Assembly: GCA_963678675.1 (NCBI GenBank)
Contig: OY783199.1
Span: 20,150,909-20,214,908 of the forward strand
Reading direction: 5' to 3'
DNA length: 64,000 bases
From: Xiphydria camelus
Lineage: Eukaryota; Arthropoda; Insecta; Hymenoptera; Xiphydriidae
This document shows positions 1 to 50,766 of the stretch, one piece after another; within the stretch, counting starts at the first letter, position 1; each line of letters opens with the position of its first letter. The position numbers were made by a program, and so were the translations under genes. The notes beneath the pieces were generated by a model. The model did not search any database. It saw nothing but the letters and a program-made list of their open reading frames with translations, and was not told the origin of the DNA.

Positions 1-118
1 ATGTTGCTATGTTGATGGGTACCTCTTACAATGTATAACGATACTCCGTGTTATGTCGCTCCTAAGGATAACTTTTACTATGTGAAGCATCACTTTGTAC
101 AACATTCTTTTCGCGTGT
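1..118. repeat. Truncated copy of the CACGG-ended inverted-repeat family (family B)
   Basis: This is one half of a miniature element seen complete at 36813-37149 and 48340-48675. Shared stretches are the GTTATGTCGCTCC block, the TGTGAAGCATCAC block and the ACAACATTCTTTT end. The other half is cut off by the window edge. Confidence 0.7.
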
Positions 119-1880
119 TTTCTCATTCGAATAATTCAACGATCTTGCAACAGACACAATGCTTCTCGTTAACAATGTCACATATCGCCTATCGGTTCCG
201 TCGCATGAGGCCCACGTTCCAGAGGTATCGCGAGACCTTCCGAGCGGGCTGATCTCGAGATCTTTCGTTACTGGAGTTCTTGAATATCGAAGGGAGACGC
301 GCGCGCACCTCGGGAGGCATCACGTTCTCCCCGCTTGTGTACTCGCGTGTTCCGTTTCGTGCATTCCTAAGAACACGCTCGCATACGTAGGAAGCCTCGG
401 TGTTGCACTTCCGTTCCGTTACACGGCCTTCCGAGAAGTTACATATATAGAAGCGCAACGGCAACAACGTAATCGCGATATTACGCCTTATACGCGCTCT
501 CTTTATTTTCGTACCTCATTGTTACGCCTCGTCGTCACTCGATGCCCTGTGAGCGCCCCCTTCTTTCGATTCGGCTTCGCCTAATTAATGGGAAACGCCT
601 TATCGCACCGCGGCACGCGTCTTCCTTTCCGCTGACGCATTGCGGATGGAACAGTCCTCGTTATAGTGATCCACGCTCGCTGCGTTTCAGTGGATCGCAG
701 GGGAGGGATCGACGCGTGCAAATCTTTCTTTCGCCGCTGCAGTTAGCGTTCGTATCTCGCTGAGTCGTCGTCACGCTCGTGTGTGTCTCGCTTGGCGAGG
801 TCTTCGCGCAACGTGACCGCACACTCGTCGTCCAATCGTTAATGGCTGCCATTCGCGACCGCGTTCGTAGTTCCATAAATTCGTCGTTATTTTTTTTGTC
901 ATCGCTCTTCCGTAGAATTTCATTCTGTACCTCTTCCACGGTTTCGCGTTATGCGAGTGACTGATTAAGTGGACGAACGGCGTACGCTTGCGGGTTGGTA
1001 ATAGAGTAGGTTATGAATTTCGAGAATTGACGTTCAAAATATTAATTACTTTTTAATAATTAATTTCTCCGTAAATTTTTAATGGATTTCAATAAAATCA
1101 ATTGCATCATATCCGTAATTGTTTAATGAACAGGGTTTTCCTCTGGATCAGAGGTTTGAGAACACCCCGTACCTATGTACAATTTTTCGTAAATATATTG
1201 TTGCAATAAATACAGCTATTAATTTGAGTCACATTATGATGTAAATTTAAAAATTTCCCAAAGAACAATTATTTTTCTAAACTCATGCGGTGATATAAAC
1301 GTAGACTTTTTAGAACAATCAATTACTGTAATTTGTAGAACGTCGTGACGATCATGCAAGTCTATCTGGGCGTTTCCATTCATACTTGTTGCAGCCTATT
1401 GTAGGACATTATTTTCTCAATGCAGTGCTGAGAAAGTAAATAAATTTCACCGTGTGGAGATTACAAGTTACCCCGAAGTCATCGGCCATGTCTTTCTTCG
1501 AAACGTCGATAAGTAGACTTCCGAGTGTCTCTTTGTGACGTCACGAATTTACAAACACCAGAGACCACTCGAGAGCGCGGTCGAAGATCCTCGACTAAAC
1601 ATCGAATACCTTTACCCACTCCTCCTTCCCTCTTTCCACGAAGAGATCTCGCGGTCGACCGAAAATTGTTTACAATAATTTGGCACGCAGACAGAACCGA
1701 AGTGCGAGCGCGATATCCCAGGAGATACTGAACGTCGCACAGTGGGAAATTGTACATATCTGTGCGGTCATAAATCAAATTTGTAAAGGAAGGCACGAGT
1801 CAAAAGTAATTGTTGTTTGGTACTCGGAAGGGATTTTTATGACTTAGATGTATTTCTTAAAATAATTTATTAATAAACTA
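119..1880. other. dsx intron, partly CpG-rich; no gene seen
   Basis: Positions 180-970 are CpG-rich and stay open in several frames on both strands, but no frame resembles a known protein and none has matched splice sites. From 1010 the sequence is AT-rich. It probably belongs to a dsx intron upstream of the OD2 exon, since the DM-domain exon is not visible here. Confidence 0.5.
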
Positions 1881-2290
1881 CAAGCATTTTGCCGTACAAT
1901 CTGTAAAATTTCTTTCAGTGTAGCCTCTCGAGTAATTTTGTTTTCTTTCGTACAAAAAGAATTTCTTGTTTCAACAAATGTATTCCTGAATCATGAATAT
2001 ATCGACTGGTACCAGAGAAAAGCACGCACCTTTTCACTCTCATGAAACATCGTAACTCGTTGCTATGCGAGGAAACATTGTAAGTCCTTGTCGTTATCGA
2101 TGTGACTTACAACTTTTCCTTGCATAGCAACGAGTTACGATGTTCTATAATGATAGTGAAAAGATACGTGCTTTTTTCCAGTACCGGTCGATATATTTTT
2201 CCACCAAGAACCTGTATTCTTAAAAATTCGTAAAATCACACGTTCTTGATTCAAGACATTTTTTCGACACTAGCAATTATTTCTCTCAGT
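1881..2290. repeat. Inverted-repeat element (family F) interrupted by a hairpin element
   Basis: The flanks (about 1900-1996 and 2198-2290) match the copies at 22265-22560 and 39650-39850: a stretch around AAAGAATTTCTTG, then TTGATTCAAGA, ending in GACACTAGCAATTATTTCTCTCAG. The hairpin at 1997-2197 splits this copy, so the hairpin arrived later. Confidence 0.6.
1997..2197. mobile_element. Hairpin miniature element, about 90-base arms
   Basis: The left arm, beginning AATATATCGACTGGTACCAG, is the near-exact reverse complement of the right arm, ending at 2197. The inner parts CATCGTAACTCGTTGCTATG and CATAGCAACGAGTTACGATG are perfect complements. No coding capacity. It sits inside another repeat. 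Confidence 0.8.
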
Positions 2291-4190
2291 GTACCGCGTA
2301 CAGATATACGCGCGGGGTATATCGACTGCGAAATCGCGTTCGGCTGTACGTTCGTCGACGTGCTCTCTGCATATTTGGAGCACGCGAGGAAGCTGGTGCG
2401 CTCGACGGGGGCGAGGACGGGGAGTTTTTGGCGTGTCTTCCATTGTCGAAATTGGGTTCTCGTCTGCACTCTCGCGCGCATTTCCTCGACGCGTATCACG
2501 AGCTGGTCTTCGTCCTGCGTAACGATATTCCACCTCTGCCCCCCCCCCCCCTGCCCGGATGAGCCTCTCGCGTTACGCAATAAACCTCGTATCGCATTTC
2601 GCGATAACCCTTCGCAGGAGGCCTCGTGCATCGATTGTAGCAAATCGCAGATCTTCGTGACGGGCCGCGAGACCGAAACACGCCGTGGACGTGCCAAGTG
2701 GCGCGATGATATACACGTGTGTATATCGGTATCGGTGTCACTTACGGACGCGTTAAAGCGTTGGAAGGGGCGCCAAAATTGCTCCGTCTTTGGGAGGGCT
2801 GACTTCCCGCGAAAATGCGGATCTCTTCTCCTCCCCAAGAATCCCGGGATCCCAGATGCGGCCGCGCGCGCGCGTCGATGCAGTGGCGCGGGGAAGGAAT
2901 TTCCGTCCGCTGATGCTCGCGCGATAGCGACGTCGAGAAATTGAGGGGATCGCGGGGCGAGCGGGGTGCAAGCCGTCGGACTTGGACGGCGACGGGAGAG
3001 CAGTAAAACGGAAGTGCAGACGGATAACGTTCCGTACGTCGATTAAGTTACGTTCGCAAAAATTCGTCCCGATATCCGGGGTGCTTGCATGTGTTCATAT
3101 CGCGTTCCGCGTATTTCCTCACAGAGTTTGAGACTATTTGCATGTGGCACCATCATCGTTAATATTTTCGTTCGATTTGGGAGCGTTATGTGCAATATTA
3201 AATTGAGCGAGGCGTGTTTTAATTCAGCTTTTGTCAGTTAGAGTAACTTTTTAAAAATATTGAATGTTATATATTTAGAGCAAAAGAGGGATAGATAGCA
3301 CCCCACTCCATTCCTGAAGAATAAAAGTTATAAAATATAATTTGGACAAAATAAGGGATTCCGTTTTCAGCGTTTTGGAGAATAAGTATCCACACACACA
3401 AGTGGTGGAATAGATGCCCCGGGTATCTGATCAGATGAGTTCATTTTAAGCGTAAGAAAAGCTAATTTCACAATGAATATACCTAATGTCTCACACATAT
3501 TCTGAAATACAATAAAGAAAATACAATTATCAATGGCAAAACGAGGCACCGAGAATAGTTGCGAGAAACCCGGAAGATCTACGAAATCCACGGAAAAGAA
3601 CGAATACGAATGCACGGTGTAATTTGTGTGTATGCGTACCCTAATTGACGAGTAACAGCCGAGTTCTTAAACGTACGACCAGGCGATGAAACTGGTTTAC
3701 CGTTTGCATACATACACATAGGTGGTATACTCGCACACGTGCGGTAATCACGTTATTACGGTGCAGTTTTTGCACGGTCAGCGCGCGACGAGCACCGTTT
3801 AAAGTTGCGAAGGTGCAATTACATGCTGATTTCGGGAATTTCTTTGGCGCCTAACAATTGTAACGTAACTGAGGTAGTCTTTACCTGCGTTCGATCGGCT
3901 TCCAAATCTTCCCTCTAAACTCCCGCTTACGCGTACCAGTCGTCCTTGTCTCGTATGAAGAGTCCATCACCCGGTTTGACCCTCGGATGTCCAATATAGG
4001 TAATTTTTGTAGAGCGTTTACCAAGGGGGCGTAGCGCACATCAAATAATTTAAGAAAGAAAATTGGTTATCACTATAAATGTTCAAATATTAGAAGGACA
4101 ATGTTTGAACGAGATGACGAATAATAATTGTACAATATTTTTAAAAAATCGATCTTAGTTTTTTTTTCTAAACAGCAACAATGAAACATT
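2291..4190. other. CpG-rich island (2290-3060) followed by AT-rich sequence; no gene supported
   Basis: The island has long open frames on both strands over the same bases (about 230 codons on +, 195 on -). Neither resembles a known protein; in GC-rich sequence stop codons are simply rare. A poly-C run lies at about 2540-2552. From 3060 to 4190 I see no gene. Confidence 0.5.
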
Positions 4191-4193
4191 CTC

Positions 4194-5285
4194 ACGGTGT
4201 ACAGCGGTCAGGAAATTTTGGAAAACCTGTAATGGTCAGGAAATTATGTAGGTCAGGAAAAAGTCGGGGTAAATAAAGAATATTCTAGAATTCTTTGAAA
4301 GTAATTAAATTTTACAAATAGCTTTACTTCTAGTCTTTTACAATTTCTAAGAATTTATACAGGATGTTACTTAATGATTGGCCGTAATTGCAAGGGCACA
4401 TTACTGAAATGTACACTTTTTTTGTCAATATTATTCGTGAGACTGTACGCCACTGGAACTCATAATTATCTTCTAGTTAGTGCTAACTTAGCGTCTTATT
4501 ACAATAAACAACAGTGCCAAATGTCAAAAAAATCGGCACAAGGATCTTTGAGATATTATTTTAAAAACTGATTTTTTTAAACTTTGACGTCCTGTATTTT
4601 GAAAACCAGACATTTTAGGACACATGTTAATATGAACTTTTTTACTGGAAATTGATTCAGTAATGTGCCAATGCAATTACGGCCTATCATTAAGTAACAC
4701 CCTGTATAGAATCCTAAAAGAAAAGTGTTCCACATATGTATATGTACCTACTCGTATATATGTATCTAAGTTCTTTCTTGATCTAAAAAAAGCCTTAAAT
4801 AATAATTCGATTTGACAAAATTAAATTATGGGAATCCGAGTGTTTGAATCCGAAATTAAAGAATTTTTTGGAATTTTTAGAAAAATAAGTACTCAAACTT
4901 CATAAATTTCGAAAGTAGGAGATTCCTATGAATCAGTTCTCTCTCTTTTTACCAGCAGTAAAAATATCGATTATTGATAGAAGCAATGTAAGTACCTATT
5001 ATATATGAAGTGTGCCATGACAAAACGTATATTTGAAAATTTCTTATGTTAAGAAAAGTTATTGAAAAGTAAAAATGTGATTTCGCAAAATTATAATAAA
5101 TTATTTTTATACTGATTTAGCTAGCGCATCCGTTATATCGGTATTCGTTAATCTGTTCATTTGAGACAATGACTGGTTGCATAATACTCCCTATTGGATC
5201 TATGTCCATAATGGTCAAGAAAGATTTATAGACTGGAAATTCCGGAAGTCACAGAATTTTTTTTTCATACTGCGCTGGACACCAT
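4194..5285. mobile_element. Family D repeat (GGTGTNYAGCGGTCAGGAAATT...GGACACC), with an insertion
   Basis: It starts ACGGTGTACAGCGGTCAGG and ends CTGCGCTGGACACC, with degenerate TCAGGGAA-type repeats inside. Related copies lie at 10545-10978, 11970-12672 and 27985-29076. The ends are short complementary GGTGT/ACACC motifs. No coding frame. A second element is inserted at 4360-4704. Confidence 0.65.
4360..4704. mobile_element. Inverted-repeat element nested in family D
   Basis: The terminal repeats are about 45 bases: the left begins CAGGATGTTACTTAATGATT and the right ends ATCATTAAGTAACACCCTG. The flanks read ATA/TATA, a possible short target duplication. The 65-codon open frame inside does not resemble a transposase. 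Confidence 0.75.
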
Positions 5286-5350
5286 ATTTTTATATTAACT
5301 ATATTAAGGACTGTATTTTGATTTTTGAACGTTTGTATAATTCATATATA

Positions 5351-5744
5351 GGGTAAACCACCCAGTTATTGGACACCTTGCAGTTATTAGACAGTCTGAT
5401 TTAAATAAATAAAAACAAGATTCCTAGTTTTTATTTTAATAAATAGGTATTATCGAAAACAGTGTCTGGCTTATTGATTCTTGACTGTCCAATTACTGGA
5501 TTGAGTATTTCCAAAAAATAAGAACACTGCCCAATAACTAAGTTTTTTCACAGTATCCCAACTTTTTATTGTTGAAAATTATATCCTTTTCAACTTAAAA
5601 TTGTAAGTTACTAGAATGTAAAGCCAATATATTTTCAATCAAAACAAGCCACCACTCATATCTCTCTAGGTAGAAAAATATATTTTTAACACGGTCTCAA
5701 ATCTTGTAAAATGCTTAAGTGTCCAATAACTGGGTGGTTTACCC
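5351..5744. mobile_element. TA-flanked miniature element (Tc1/mariner type by target site)
   Basis: About 27-base inverted ends: GGGTAAACCACCCAGTTATT at the left and its reverse complement at the right, ending GGTTTACCC. Both sides are bordered by the dinucleotide TA (5349-5350 and 5745-5746). It is 394 bases, AT-rich inside and non-coding. The superfamily is inferred only from the TA target. Confidence 0.8.
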
Positions 5745-7636
5745 TATTCAATATATGGTTAATACAAAAATTATATAATATAATACATATATGACCAAAT
5801 CCATACTTATATGGATCACATACAAAATATATAAAAATTTTCCGCCTGGGAATTTACTGCTCAGATTTTGTCGTGTAGATATCGTCGAGGGGTCACACTA
5901 ACTCTTATTAAAAGTGTATGCTATACGTATGGTCTCTCCGGCTATAATTTATAATCGAGGACTTATTTCGCTGGATAGATAACTGGTTCTCTCAACGATA
6001 CCTTTCTTCCAGTGTCCATGCACGCATAGCTATTTCTCAACAACTTCCTTCTACTCCACTTCGCCTTTCCCTGGTTTTTTAGCTGGTCCCCGCTGGTCCC
6101 ACAGGGCCTGGCGCGCGTACGATGGTCGTCGACGACGTAGATGCTCTGACCTGCGTTTATAACTGTCATAAACAAAATGGCGGTGATCCGAACAAAACGA
6201 AACGCTCGCTCGTACGCGAATTAAACCTAAGTAAACTTTCCCCCCCTCTTTTCTCTCTTCGCCCGTCTCCAACGCCTTCGACCTGCGTGTGAGGGGAAGG
6301 AGAAGGACGCTCAGCGTCGCGACGCACCTGCTACTCGCGCTTGTCTATTCCAGGCGCTGGCCATTCCCATTTTTAAAATGCTTTCGAGTGCTGTGGGCGG
6401 AGCCAAAGCAACCGGCGAACCGCCATTGGCTCGCGTAATGTCTAATATATCATGTCACAACGCTCGGGGAACTATTGTCCCGGGTGTGTGCAGGACACGA
6501 AGTCGCTGCGACTCGGGATACGGGTCGATATCGTCGGGCGTAGTTGGTCTCGGCTCGTGTACGTCGCATCGTGGACTTTGGTACCGTATTGTTCCACTAC
6601 TGCGAATGCTTCGACGGTTTTCGGTCCGCAGGGCGATTCGGGGTCCAATTCTCGGTATTCGGGGGTGGTGGACTATCCCTTCGCTGGCCGGCTTGGTCGG
6701 TTTAATGGCTCTGGTATATAGGGGTACGCCGTCAGTGGTTATAACTGCACTGGCGTGGTCACGTGTTCGTGTCTTCGCGTGGCTGCCCGGTAGCATTACA
6801 TAAAAATAATTGCACGACAGCCGCCATGCTTCTTGGTACTGCTTCGCCCGCGGTCTCCGAGGGGCGGAGGAGTCGTTGTAGCGGGTCGGGCTAATTTGTA
6901 AGCGGTAATGTCATAAAAGTGTATATGCGTGTTTCTCTGTGAGGTATAGTAGGTACTTACAGAGGAGACTGGCAAAACCGGAGCCATTGGCACTGCTTTG
7001 CAGCTAGAAGTAGTCTATTATACGCGTCTATTCGTGGTAATCAGATTGCCTTCGTCGGTGGACGATGCTGAAGATAGCGGCTAGTAGTGGCACTATTCTG
7101 TACATTGAGAAAAAAATGTAGTTAATTCAACCAAATTGTTTGTGTTAAAAGTTAACTTACGACATAGTGTTTTAGAAACAAGAAAATGACAGCGGCTTTC
7201 AATGCAACCCCCTAATATGTAATATTTTTTGAAGATTACATTTTTATCTATAACAAAGTCTTATATCGACGCAGGCCAAAAATTGATAAATAATGAGATA
7301 ATAGCGATTGAAGTTTCTTTCCTGGCGAGCAAGTTTATAGCCTCATATTTACAGTTTTATACAGAATAACGTACCTAATAGATACGACCCATAATACGTA
7401 TACCGTCTTACTGGGACCTCTACGGTGCTAGGCGAATATATGTCGGACCGTAACTACTGGCTGCTCTATAGAGCCGCGGTTGCTAACTTCAGTATTACAA
7501 TCTTCGGCACAAGCATCAGTGACGAGAGAAATTGTATCTTGCCTCAAGAAAAAGAATAGTAGGTACGACTGCCAACAAAAAGACGCGAGAAAATCTTAAA
7601 AAAACCTCCCCAATTCATAGTTTATCTTCATTAAGG
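5745..7636. other. dsx intron with a CpG-rich island (about 5880-7080)
   Basis: The island contains overlapping open frames on both strands without family resemblance. Repetitive AT-rich sequence follows. No acceptor-donor pair with a recognisable protein was found. Confidence 0.45.
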
Positions 7637-7639
7637 CGA

Positions 7640-8034
7640 TTTTGTCAATAATAGAATAAATAGAACGATTTCGATCCAGTTCAAGTGTTATGACGATTCA
7701 CCAGTTCGTATAAGAAATATTAAATAAATGAAGGAATACCCACTTAAAATAGAATCTTATAAGGAGAGTAGCGCATAAATTTCTTTTATTTATTTATTTA
7801 ATGGAACTATTTCGATCAAGTTCAATTGTTGTGACGATTCAGCAGTTCCTATAAGAGATGTCAAATAAATAAAGCAATACTCATTTCAAAAAATATATAT
7901 ATATTTATATCGATTCACAAATAAAATAAATTTATGCGCTACTTCTCATAAGATTCTATTTTAAATGGATATTCCTTTATTTATTTATTTACCAAATATC
8001 AAAATCGTTTTGTTAATTCTATTGTCGACAAAAC
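7640..8034. repeat. Long inverted repeat with embedded direct repeat, just upstream of the dsx OD2 exon
   Basis: About 7640-7795 pairs with about 7921-8034; the best-matched part is ATAGAATCTTAT...GTAGCGCATAAATTT against its complement. The left arm also contains a block at 7664-7750 that recurs directly at 7804-7890 (TTTCGATCNAGTTCAAXTGTT type). It ends about 75 bases before the OD2 acceptor and could fold in the pre-mRNA. Confidence 0.75.
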
Positions 8035-8108
8035 CTCCTCAAGCGCGTCAATCGCACTTGCGTATACACAAATATATTTAACGAGCGCATTTCCATCTTT
8101 TTTTTCAG

Positions 8109-8252
8109 TAGACAACGTCGCAATTCTCCTGGAGTACAGCAGAATGTTGCTGCGTCATTTCGGATTCCCCTGGTGCGTGATACCCTCGATGTACGTCATC
8201 CTGAAGGATTCTAACGGGAATATAGGCGAGGCAGCTCGACGCATCGCGGAAG
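8109..8252 (+). CDS. dsx: doublesex, exon encoding the dimerisation (OD2) domain
   Basis: DSX is the DM-domain transcription factor at the end of the insect sex-determination cascade. It acts in the nucleus as a dimer, and this exon supplies the dimerisation domain. Seen: a T-rich acceptor (TTTTTTCAG ending at 8108), 144 bases open in one frame, and the donor AAG|GTAAGA at 8253. The frame enters with two bases of a split codon and leaves with one. The 47 full codons run from DNVAILLEYSRM to EAARRIAE. The core FPWCVIPSMYVILKD matches the canonical YPWELMPLMYVILKD, and ARRIAE matches SRRIEE. The protein is diverged in flanking positions (LLRHF, SNGNIGE). In other insects this is the last exon common to both sexes. 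The upstream DM-domain exon is not in the window. Confidence 0.92.
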
Positions 8253-8594
8253 GTAAGAGTCAAAGGAGACATATGGCTGGGGAAGAGGCGGTTCCTCTTT
8301 CCTTTGATCGTTTCCTCATTCGGTACATCGCAAACGCGAAGCGTGACAAACGGCGGCGATGCATCGGCATCCTGATTTTCATTGCCGAAATCTAAAGTTA
8401 CTTTCTGCAAAAATTCAGTCGCATGTCACGCTTCGCTCGGGCTCAGCCTATTCGCTGCATCATCGTTCCATCATTGGAACACTTGATTTGGTTCTTGGGG
8501 AACATCGTATCTGGGGCATTACACTGAAACGCAGCAGCAAATGGGTTAATTGGACGAAATGAATGATGATAACGTTTCTTTTTCCATCATTTAG

Positions 8595-8704
8595 CAGCGG
8601 GCACAGTTTGCGCGAATTTACGGTACTCAATGACAACAATTCTCCTATTATCGCTTAGAAAATTTAGTAATAATTCGAGTTCAATGGCTCGTCGTGTCAC
8701 GTAG
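8595..8704 (+). CDS. dsx: Candidate female-specific dsx exon, coding part (diverged)
   Basis: A pyrimidine-rich acceptor with tandem AGs (TTTCCATCATTTAGCAG) could open an exon at 8595 or 8598. Either choice is in phase with the OD2 donor and gives a short tail, starting (A)AGTVCANLRYSM and ending SSSMARRVT, then TAG at 8702-8704. This is about 35 residues, close to the 30-residue female tail of Drosophila DSX. It is proposed because the female exon should lie between 8252 and 37706, the phase fits, and a dense GAAGAT enhancer cluster begins 67 bases after the stop, much as the dsx repeat element of Drosophila lies in the female 3' untranslated region. Against it, the peptide does not visibly show the usual VVNEYSR-like motif. 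The exon end was not determined. Confidence 0.42.
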
Positions 8705-8771
8705 CCTAAGCCTACTTCGATTGGCTAAAAATTTATCGAACACACGAAGCGACGGGTCGTCGTGCAACATG

Positions 8772-9100
8772 GAAGATTTGTTATTTCGCATCGAACATCG
8801 AAGATCCATGAGGATCCTGCTGCAATTCGACACCCGAGACGGGCAATCCCGGGAGAGTAACACGACTCCGCGACGTTTGAAGATCACCACTGAAGATTTA
8901 CTCCTTACCAAAGGCGTCAGTGAAGATCACAATAAAGCTTGGAAATTGTTACTTTCGTTACATACGAAGAAGTACATTTACGCGTCCGATTTATTTAGTT
9001 GGTCATCGAAACATTTTTCGATAACCCTTTGAGAACGGTAAGAAGTTTTCAAATATCCGATCATTATTGCGACATTATCGCCCACTTCGTCCATGAAGAT
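8772..9100 (+). promoter_or_regulatory. Cluster of six GAAGAT motifs: putative TRA/TRA2 splicing enhancer of dsx
   Basis: GAAGAT occurs at 8772, 8800, 8879, 8892, 8922 and 9095, all on the + (sense) strand; 8892 reads TGAAGATTT. A given hexamer is expected about 0.08 times in 329 bases. UGAAGAU-type motifs have been proposed as TRA/TRA2 binding sites in hymenopteran tra and dsx. Elsewhere on the same strand of this window the hexamer is sparse. The position, directly 3' of the OD2 exon, fits an enhancer that activates a female-specific exon. Confidence 0.65.
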
Positions 9101-9239
9101 TCACTTCTGATCCTCAACGAAAATTCGACCATGGTGCGAATTCAGAGCTCCACTCGACCGAAGGGCTTCTCATTGACAACATCACGGCAATGGTACGTTG
9201 CAATTTTATAACGATAACACATCGTTATCTGTGTCGTCA

Positions 9240-10480
9240 AGCATTTGGTTCAACGTTGCTTCGCTCTGTAGTACCATCGATAGATGGTAGAATCTGTCTA
9301 TAGTGGCAACTTACAGCAAGACTGCCAGTATAGGTATGTTCTACTATATGCGCAATCGTATCTAGAGACATATAGGTAGCAAGCGCCGTTTGATGCGTCC
9401 ATTAGTTACTGATATCAGCCAGGGCCGTCACTGTTTCAAAATGAGAACTCGTTAGTCGCGCCGCTGGGCCCTCTGTCAGTTCTAGGGACTTCGAAAATCC
9501 TTAGAAGAAACTTCTCGCGCGACATTTGAGAATAATCTCGCTGTCGGTAATATAGTCAAACTCATTGGCATAGTAACACTGTAGAGTATATCATTCCTGA
9601 ATATTATGGTTATTCAAATCACAGAAAAAAATTGATCATTACGTCTATGAGTGACATGCAGCACTCGCGCGAAAGGTCTGAAACAAAATATTCATTAGAT
9701 ATCAGAAAAGCGGTCTGCTCCCTCATCATCCACGCCCTGAGTAATAACGTTCTTTAATAACAAAATATCGCAGTGAAATATATACTGGAATCAATAGCGT
9801 GCAGTGAACCACTGGTCGGAAATTACCCCGCATTCTCCGTATACTGTAAAAAAATTTTAATATAAATGTATATGAAGCAGCAATTAACATATGCACGAGT
9901 TTATTAATATTCATACGCAGAAGTGTATGAAATTTCAAACCCATGGTTTTTAAAATTCAAATAGGCTATTAAATTTCAAAACAATGTTCTTAAATTTAAA
10001 ATATGATATGAAATTAAATAACCTAATTTTTGAAAATTAAAATACGTTATGAATTTTCGTAAATAATTTGCCGTGCTTACAGTATACATATGTATATAGA
10101 TACTTCTGCGCAATGAATTTAACGACTCGCATATGAACTTTTAAGAACTGTTCTTAAATTTAATAATCGTACATAGTAAATCTATACGGTATTTTTGAAA
10201 CTTCAAAATAAAGTTTTTAAATTTAATAGGTACGTTTATTTGAAAATTCAATTTCACACTAAAATTTTCATACACGCATTTGAAAATGAATATACTTCAA
10301 CTTAAAATTTAGATATTTGTTTGAGTTATACAATACAGATATTAATTTTCAAACAGCTTCATATGATTCTCAGTTTCAATACTATAGTTCATAAAATTAA
10401 AATAACTTTGTATTTCAAATTTCAAAACATTTTTAATGGTGTAAATACACAATATGTGTAACCTAGCTGAAAGTTTTGGT
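9240..10480. repeat. AT-rich intron with degenerate repeat at about 9720-10440
   Basis: The part from about 9840 to 10440 consists of degenerate units rich in AATTTCAAA and TTTGAAAATT. It matches, inverted, the block at about 12130-12425, with shared stretches such as the CATACGCAGAAGTGTATG type and GCAGCAATTAACAT. No gene seen. Confidence 0.5.
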
Positions 10481-50151: not shown

Positions 50152-50766
50152 TTATTATTGATCAATATGCATTGATCAATATATTGAAGGTCTCATCAAT
50201 ATGCTTCAATATAGCTTCAATATAGCTCTATCAATACGATGACTAGATATTTTTACTTTTTAATTTTTACTTTTTTTAAATTTTCTTCCTCAGTTTGTCT
50301 ACAGTAAAGTGATTTAAAATAAATGAATGCATCAACGATTTCCTTCATAACTATCTGCATCTTAGCTTGATTAAAATAATCCTTTGATTTAACTTTCCAC
50401 AGTTCCGGCGAATCACGATAAAGTGTAATTAAGAGCAAAATAAAATCACGTTCGGACTCTGATTTTTCACTTGCGTCGGTTATCACGTAAGTGCTCACAC
50501 TTCGATATCTGAAACAAAACTGATGAAAATATTGATCAATATACCTCATAAACGTCAATATGAGCATCAATATAGCTTCCATCAATACGCTTCAATATAA
50601 ATTTTCATCAATATGCTTCAATACGCCATCAATATGTTTGAAGCTCGAAACGATCAATATAGCCTTTCAATACGTATTGATTTCGTATCAGTGATTTTCG
50701 TATCAGTAATATCATTGATTCGATTTTGAATCAATACGTATTTCAATGCATATTGATCAATAATAA
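50152..50766 (-). mobile_element. Inverted-repeat element with TCAATAT subterminal repeats, carrying a MADF fragment
   Basis: The terminal repeats TTATTATTGATCAATATGCA and TGCATATTGATCAATAATAA pair almost exactly. Both subterminal regions are dense in ATCAATATGCTTCAATAT-like units. The middle encodes part of a MADF-type protein on the minus strand. Only 615 bases long, so probably a deletion derivative. Confidence 0.7.
50253..50585 (-). CDS. MADF-domain-like fragment inside a repeat element
   Basis: A 110-residue frame on the minus strand. Its second half, SEKSESERDFILLLITLYRD then SPELWKVKSKDYFNQAKM, has the N-terminal part of a MADF domain: FI-x-LY, P-x-LW, K-x-DY-x-N. MADF domains are MYB/SANT-like DNA-binding modules found in insect transcription factors and as accessory proteins of some DNA transposons. 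The C-terminal half of the domain is not present, so a missing exon or truncation is likely. The N-terminal residues MMEAILMLILTFMRYID come from the TCAATAT repeats and are probably not original protein. Confidence 0.5.
   Translation of the reverse strand: MMEAILMLILTFMRYIDQYFHQFCFRYRSVSTYVITDASEKSESERDFILLLITLYRDSPELWKVKSKDYFNQAKMQIVMKEIVDAFIYFKSLYCRQTEEENLKKVKIKK

Follow-up and report, generated by a model that had tools for sequence, protein, structure and literature searches.

A GAAGAT cluster downstream of the doublesex OD2 exon in Xiphydria camelus is a probable TRA/TRA2-responsive splicing enhancer of a predicted female exon

Six copies of the hexamer GAAGAT lie on one strand within 329 bases, 3' of the exon that encodes the dimerisation domain of doublesex (dsx) in Xiphydria camelus. 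Is this a sex-specific splicing signal, and does the same motif mark other genes of the same pathway? Repeats of the form (U/G)GAAGAU(U/A) have been described in dsx of Nasonia and Apis (Bertossa et al. 2009, as cited in PMC10057164 and PMC3045327), and have been proposed to be TRA/TRA2 sites (Verhulst et al. 2010, as cited in PMC3045327 and PMC3567074). PMC3045327 names the element NvdsxRE and reports it also from Nasonia tra and fru and from Apis fem and fru. The same source mentions copies in dsx of the mosquito Aedes aegypti, so that the NvdsxRE motif is not confined to Hymenoptera. The Nasonia TRA/TRA2 site is given as NGAAGAWN in PMC4461909. For the honeybee, PMC10057164 names five GAAGAU sites in the fem pre-mRNA and describes, from RIP-qPCR, the enrichment with tagged Csd of fem regions that contain such sites. 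An earlier note on this DNA had referred to UGAAGAU-type sites as proposed TRA/TRA2 targets in hymenopteran tra and dsx, in agreement with this published Nasonia/Apis element.

The window, that is, the whole stretch of 64,000 nucleotides that was analysed (C24:20150909–20214908), contains the OD2 exon of dsx at 8109–8252 on the + strand, a common exon of 144 nt that is entered and left in phase 1. The frame at 8108–8254 matched the Pfam family DSX_dimer (PF08828) with an E value of 3.1e-17 and the Drosophila DSX structures 1zv1/2jz0 with an E value of 2e-11, the latter match reaching the glycine with which the exon ends. Splice-site scores, obtained here and below with approximate matrices, placed the borders at a tandem acceptor (8109/8112) and at the donor GAAG/GTAAGA after 8252, which is in the top 0.05% of the 3,729 GT sites in the window. 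Four DM-domain matches were found in the genome (357 Mb, 38 contigs). One of these, at C24:20124218, is on the same strand as OD2 and ≈35 kb upstream of it, the link between the two resting on strand and distance. A protein search with the OD2 frame yielded five scored candidates, none of them with E ≤ 0.001. Exact female-tail and DM fragments known from Drosophila and other insects had no match in a dsx-like context in the window, in a search that diverged forms would escape.

The surroundings of OD2 include two further features. An inverted-repeat element is present just upstream, at 7640–7987, with 46-nt arms that are 89% complementary and 25-nt arms that are 96% complementary; it also has a 110-nt direct copy at 78%, and looks like a small mobile element. 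A forkhead-domain open frame, which by eye resembles fork head/FoxA, starts ≈96 kb downstream of OD2 (C24:20255261 onward).

The GAAGAT copies start at 8772, 8800, 8879, 8892, 8922 and 9095 on the + strand, with the last base at 9100. All six were recovered on recounting at the positions that the earlier note had claimed, while the − strand contained no GAAGAT between 8253 and 9600. The expected count per 329 bases is 0.10, compared to 0.08 in the earlier note. The note had also described the motif as sparse elsewhere. Among 329-base windows on both strands, the runner-up had two copies in the 64-kb window and three in the 244 kb around dsx. Over these 244 kb, the cluster is the densest place (six copies), followed by three copies on the − strand and two elsewhere on the + strand. 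The whole window has 20 copies of GAAGAT on the + strand and 26 on the − strand. This total of 46 is ordinary, since 100 shuffles of the window gave 43.6 (sd 6.5), and therefore the clustering alone is unusual.

The Poisson probability of finding at least six copies in 329 bases was 1.3e-9 with the composition of the window, and 3e-7 with the composition of the cluster region itself, which the cluster inflates. When 8253–9600 was subjected to dinucleotide shuffling (n = 20,000), none of the shuffled sequences had four or more GAAGAT and 31 had three. Hexamers with at least five copies in some 329-base window were then ranked by probability, and GAAGAT came fifth among the 4,094 hexamers present. 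It was preceded by TCAATA and ATCAAT (a single place near 50535), TGACCT (15782) and GAGAGA (a GA repeat). After a rough correction that counts every hexamer and window (4,094 × ≈195), a probability of ≈1e-3 remains, yet GAAGAT had already been named in the earlier literature. No tandem array was reported in 1–9925, and GGA was not enriched at the cluster (3 versus 3.9 expected). GAA was present 13 times versus 6.5 expected, six of the 13 being the GAAGAT hexamers themselves. The predicted RNA accessibility of the GAAGAT sites was ordinary, and Rfam gave no matches at gathering scores in the 64-kb window.

In the interval from the OD2 donor to the cluster, the tandem pair 8595/8598 scored best as acceptors, in the top 3% and 2%, respectively, of 3,233 AG sites. 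Both are in frame after OD2, and would lead to a short tail, with 36 or 35 codons, that ends at the TAG at 8702–8704. We thus predict, from splice-site scores, that a female exon starts with this short coding tail (8595–8704, + strand); since the female-tail fragments that were searched for were absent in a dsx-like context, it is on these scores that the exon model rests. The six GAAGAT sites start 177–500 nt downstream of 8595 and are all located 3' of the stop in the predicted exon, which would put the cluster in the 3' UTR of a putative female-specific exon. AATAAA at 8931–8936 (+ strand) may serve as an early poly(A) signal of this exon. If the exon is internal, it might instead end at 9037, 9192 or 9333, where there are alternative donor candidates on the + strand (top 0.4–1.2% of GT sites). 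With an exon end at 9037, or polyadenylation near 8931, the sixth site would fall outside the exon or the RNA. Tandem acceptors of the NAGNAG type are seen both at OD2 (8109–8114) and at the proposed female exon (8595–8600), and make a one-residue difference.

Published dsx architectures vary. Biewer et al. 2015 (PMC4392698) describe bees and Nasonia as being without the female exon of the other species compared, and Drosophila-like repeats, which were sought elsewhere in bee dsx, as not found there. Mine et al. 2017 report one female-specific exon in Apis dsx that is skipped in males (PMC5524875).

We consider it likely, on the evidence of the sequence, that the cluster acts as a TRA/TRA2-responsive exonic splicing enhancer of the predicted female dsx exon. 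The mechanism that we infer, with its exon borders, female inclusion, protein binding and default sex, would run as follows. In females, TRA/FEM and TRA2 would bind to the repeated UGAAGAU-type sites in the dsx pre-mRNA and, once bound, recruit the splicing machinery to 8595/8598, the 3' splice site 177–500 nt upstream. OD2 would then be joined to the female exon with its short tail and early stop. In males, which lack functional TRA, 8595/8598 would be skipped and OD2 spliced to exons further 3'. The female form has been proposed as the default in Apis (Cho et al., as cited in PMC3045327), which counts against male skipping as the default.

The main rival is a variant of the same switch, with the same signal in another architecture. 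The female form would extend the OD2 exon by ignoring the 8252 donor, leaving the cluster in a longer exon or a retained intron, where it would steer intron retention or the choice of a female poly(A) site instead of the 8595 acceptor. The frame does stay open past the 8252 donor, up to a stop at 8393–8395, and the AATAAA at 8931 is consistent with such an arrangement. A precedent of this kind is given in PMC5524875 for the sawfly Athalia, in which males retain, and females remove, a 119-nt stretch that contains a stop. However, few GT sites in the window score as high as the 8252 donor, and the cluster is preceded by a good acceptor. We therefore regard extension of the OD2 exon, and with it a role of the cluster in intron retention or poly(A) site choice, as rather improbable, and favor an enhancer that acts on the 8595/8598 acceptors.

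When the six sites are compared to the NvdsxRE, (T/G)GAAGAT(T/A), the core is present in all six, (T/G)GAAGAT in five and the full 8-mer in three. The X. camelus cluster thus has the core motif of the Nasonia/Apis element, agrees with it in part at the last position, is clustered in dsx beyond chance, and has counterparts at tra and fru, as detailed below. It differs in that C replaces T/A after GAAGAT in three of the six sites, in that the female exon is predicted here from DNA, and in that the genome has SDP_N modules in tandem. The GAAGAU sites of honeybee fem share the core motif and the pathway, but the gene is fem, not dsx. An extended 3' context, in which one or two Y are followed by AC, was found at four of six dsx sites, three of 13 tra sites and eight of 126 background sites; it is not used as proof, because it was chosen after the sites had been seen.

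The dsx repeat element (dsxRE) of Drosophila has six 13-nt copies in the female exon, downstream of the regulated acceptor. The GAAGAT cluster resembles it in having six copies in ≈300 nt, situated a few hundred nt past the predicted regulated acceptor, in what would be the female 3' UTR. The motif itself, TCWWCAATCAACA with its 13 nt, is unrelated to GAAGAT. This dipteran motif had no copy with up to three mismatches in 7236–9876, and at that tolerance its 78 copies in the whole window compare with 77 expected. The predicted placement is as the earlier note had proposed, like that of the Drosophila element with another motif, in that six GAAGAT follow a candidate acceptor and the dsxRE is absent nearby.

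The 357-Mb genome was scanned for three copies of KGAAGATH, that is, (T/G)GAAGAT(A/C/T), separated by gaps of 3–33 nt. The scan returned 22 matches, which were grouped into 16 places, compared to 25 matches for a backward-pattern control. The pattern itself is thus not enriched genome-wide, and the evidence lies in where the matches fall. Included in the 16 places are dsx (8878–8928 of the window) and tra (C14:35887663–35887745, gene strand). Two more precede the BTB exon of fru, and all of these are on the sense strand. If the 15 non-dsx places were randomly distributed, the expected number would be ≈0.003 for a 150-kb sense-strand frame ahead of the BTB exon and 0.0004 for a 20-kb frame at tra, both frames having been chosen after the matches were seen. 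Here, fru is the cleaner test, because the pattern was designed from the dsx sites at a point when the tra sites had already been seen. A looser pattern of three GAAGAT without the flanking letters was not selective (561 matches versus 368 in the backward control). The looser-pattern matches that were listed, on C1, C2 and C6, were by eye mostly satellite-like units and acidic repeats in coding sequence. Searches of the open-licence literature, which were not aimed at that question, found no whole-genome scan for the GAAGAT motif.

At tra, six matches to SDP_N (PF12278), presumably the N-terminal family of fem/csd/tra, occur within ≈18 kb of C14, all on the − strand. They form three SDP_N modules at C14:35872167–35890310 on the − strand (loci L026–L033), and one of the matches contains a TAA. 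Their tandem arrangement suggests a duplicated transformer locus, and is what one would look for in a hymenopteran genome. The 10 kb with two of the three modules (L032) contain 20 GAAGAT on the gene strand versus five on the other (binomial P = 0.004), compared to a mean of 5.1 and a largest value of 10 in a first-order simulation (n = 300). The 1,767 nt past the last SDP_N frame, a stretch whose far border was picked by eye, have 13 sense and no antisense copies, versus 1.2 in simulations with a largest value of 6 (n = 2,000). The stretch of the third module (L033) is weak, with eight copies versus three and no more than three per 329 nt.

The fru BTB exon was located at C20:25247968 (+ strand) by its 81% identity to the BTB sequence of Drosophila FRU; the other 48 matches had at most 60% identity. 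The proximal triple place, at C20:25240519 on the sense strand, precedes the BTB exon by 7.4 kb and falls within 402 nt (C20:25240152–25240553) that contain five sense and no antisense GAAGAT. These 402 nt may be a sex-specific exon of fru, or an enhancer. The whole 30 kb upstream of the BTB exon has 13 sense and 11 antisense copies. The distal triple place, 140 kb upstream of this exon and also on the sense strand (C20:25108197–25108271), consists of three close sites with a fourth 443 nt on; there are four sense and two antisense copies in 2.5 kb. It is possibly near a distal (P1-like) fru promoter.

Twelve of the places are outside dsx, tra and fru. Three of these (one on C22 and two on C29) were inspected in sequence and nine were judged from the matched letters; several, on C1, C6, C14 and C21, appeared internally repetitive by eye. 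The C22 place is inside a 218-codon open frame that looks odorant-receptor-like by eye. The two on C29, at C29:362951–363950 and C29:12014201–12015100, have triple GAAGAT in sequence that is neither clearly repetitive nor clearly coding, and it is possible that they are new targets or that they arose by chance.

We considered the possibility that the dsx cluster, too, arose by chance or through coding constraint and has no regulatory role. It overlaps a 132-codon open frame (8634–9032), to which an in-frame but weaker acceptor at 8659 (top 7% of AG sites) would give access, and another triple-site match lies in the C22 open frame. Against this stand the probability of ≈1e-9 and the 0 of 20,000 shuffles with at least four sites. 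Moreover, the translation of 8664–9029, most of the frame, had no Pfam match at E values up to 1, and the six sites are spread, by their coordinates, over all three reading frames. Together with the sense-strand clusters of GAAGAT at tra and upstream of fru, this makes a chance or coding origin very unlikely. Least probable of all, by a small step, is a DNA-level (transcriptional) element of dsx rather than an RNA splicing element, given sense/antisense counts of 6/0 at dsx, 13/0 in the tra stretch and 5/0 at the proximal fru place, a one-sidedness within the clusters that fits a signal in single-stranded RNA. The hymenopteran-type dsx enhancer that the earlier note had read into the cluster is thus supported by the OD2 and DM exons, the published motif and the clusters at tra and fru, and its presence in X. 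camelus appears probable from these sequence features.

The motif, its place in dsx and its presence in tra and fru were already known for two species, and X. camelus is a further case. A proposed, little-tested hymenopteran dsx splicing element is thereby extended to a further genome. Specialists would expect the dsx finding; the check within one genome makes the set of TRA targets testable. A scan that takes no account of gene identity finds tra, dsx and fru, three genes from which the element has been reported, and the most useful result is that one motif recovers both tra and fru. It provides exact sites to mutate and a cheap search for other sex-specifically spliced genes in Hymenoptera. 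More tentatively, and with doubt outweighing confidence, GAAGAT clusters might constitute a readable genome-wide code for a hymenopteran TRA/TRA2 splicing regulon. A single motif scan of an unannotated genome would then have recovered dsx, two sense-strand places ahead of the BTB exon of fru and, as a case of autoregulation, tra, and the few unassigned clusters that remain, such as those at C29:363450 (− strand) and C29:12014613 (+ strand), may mark new sex-specifically spliced targets.
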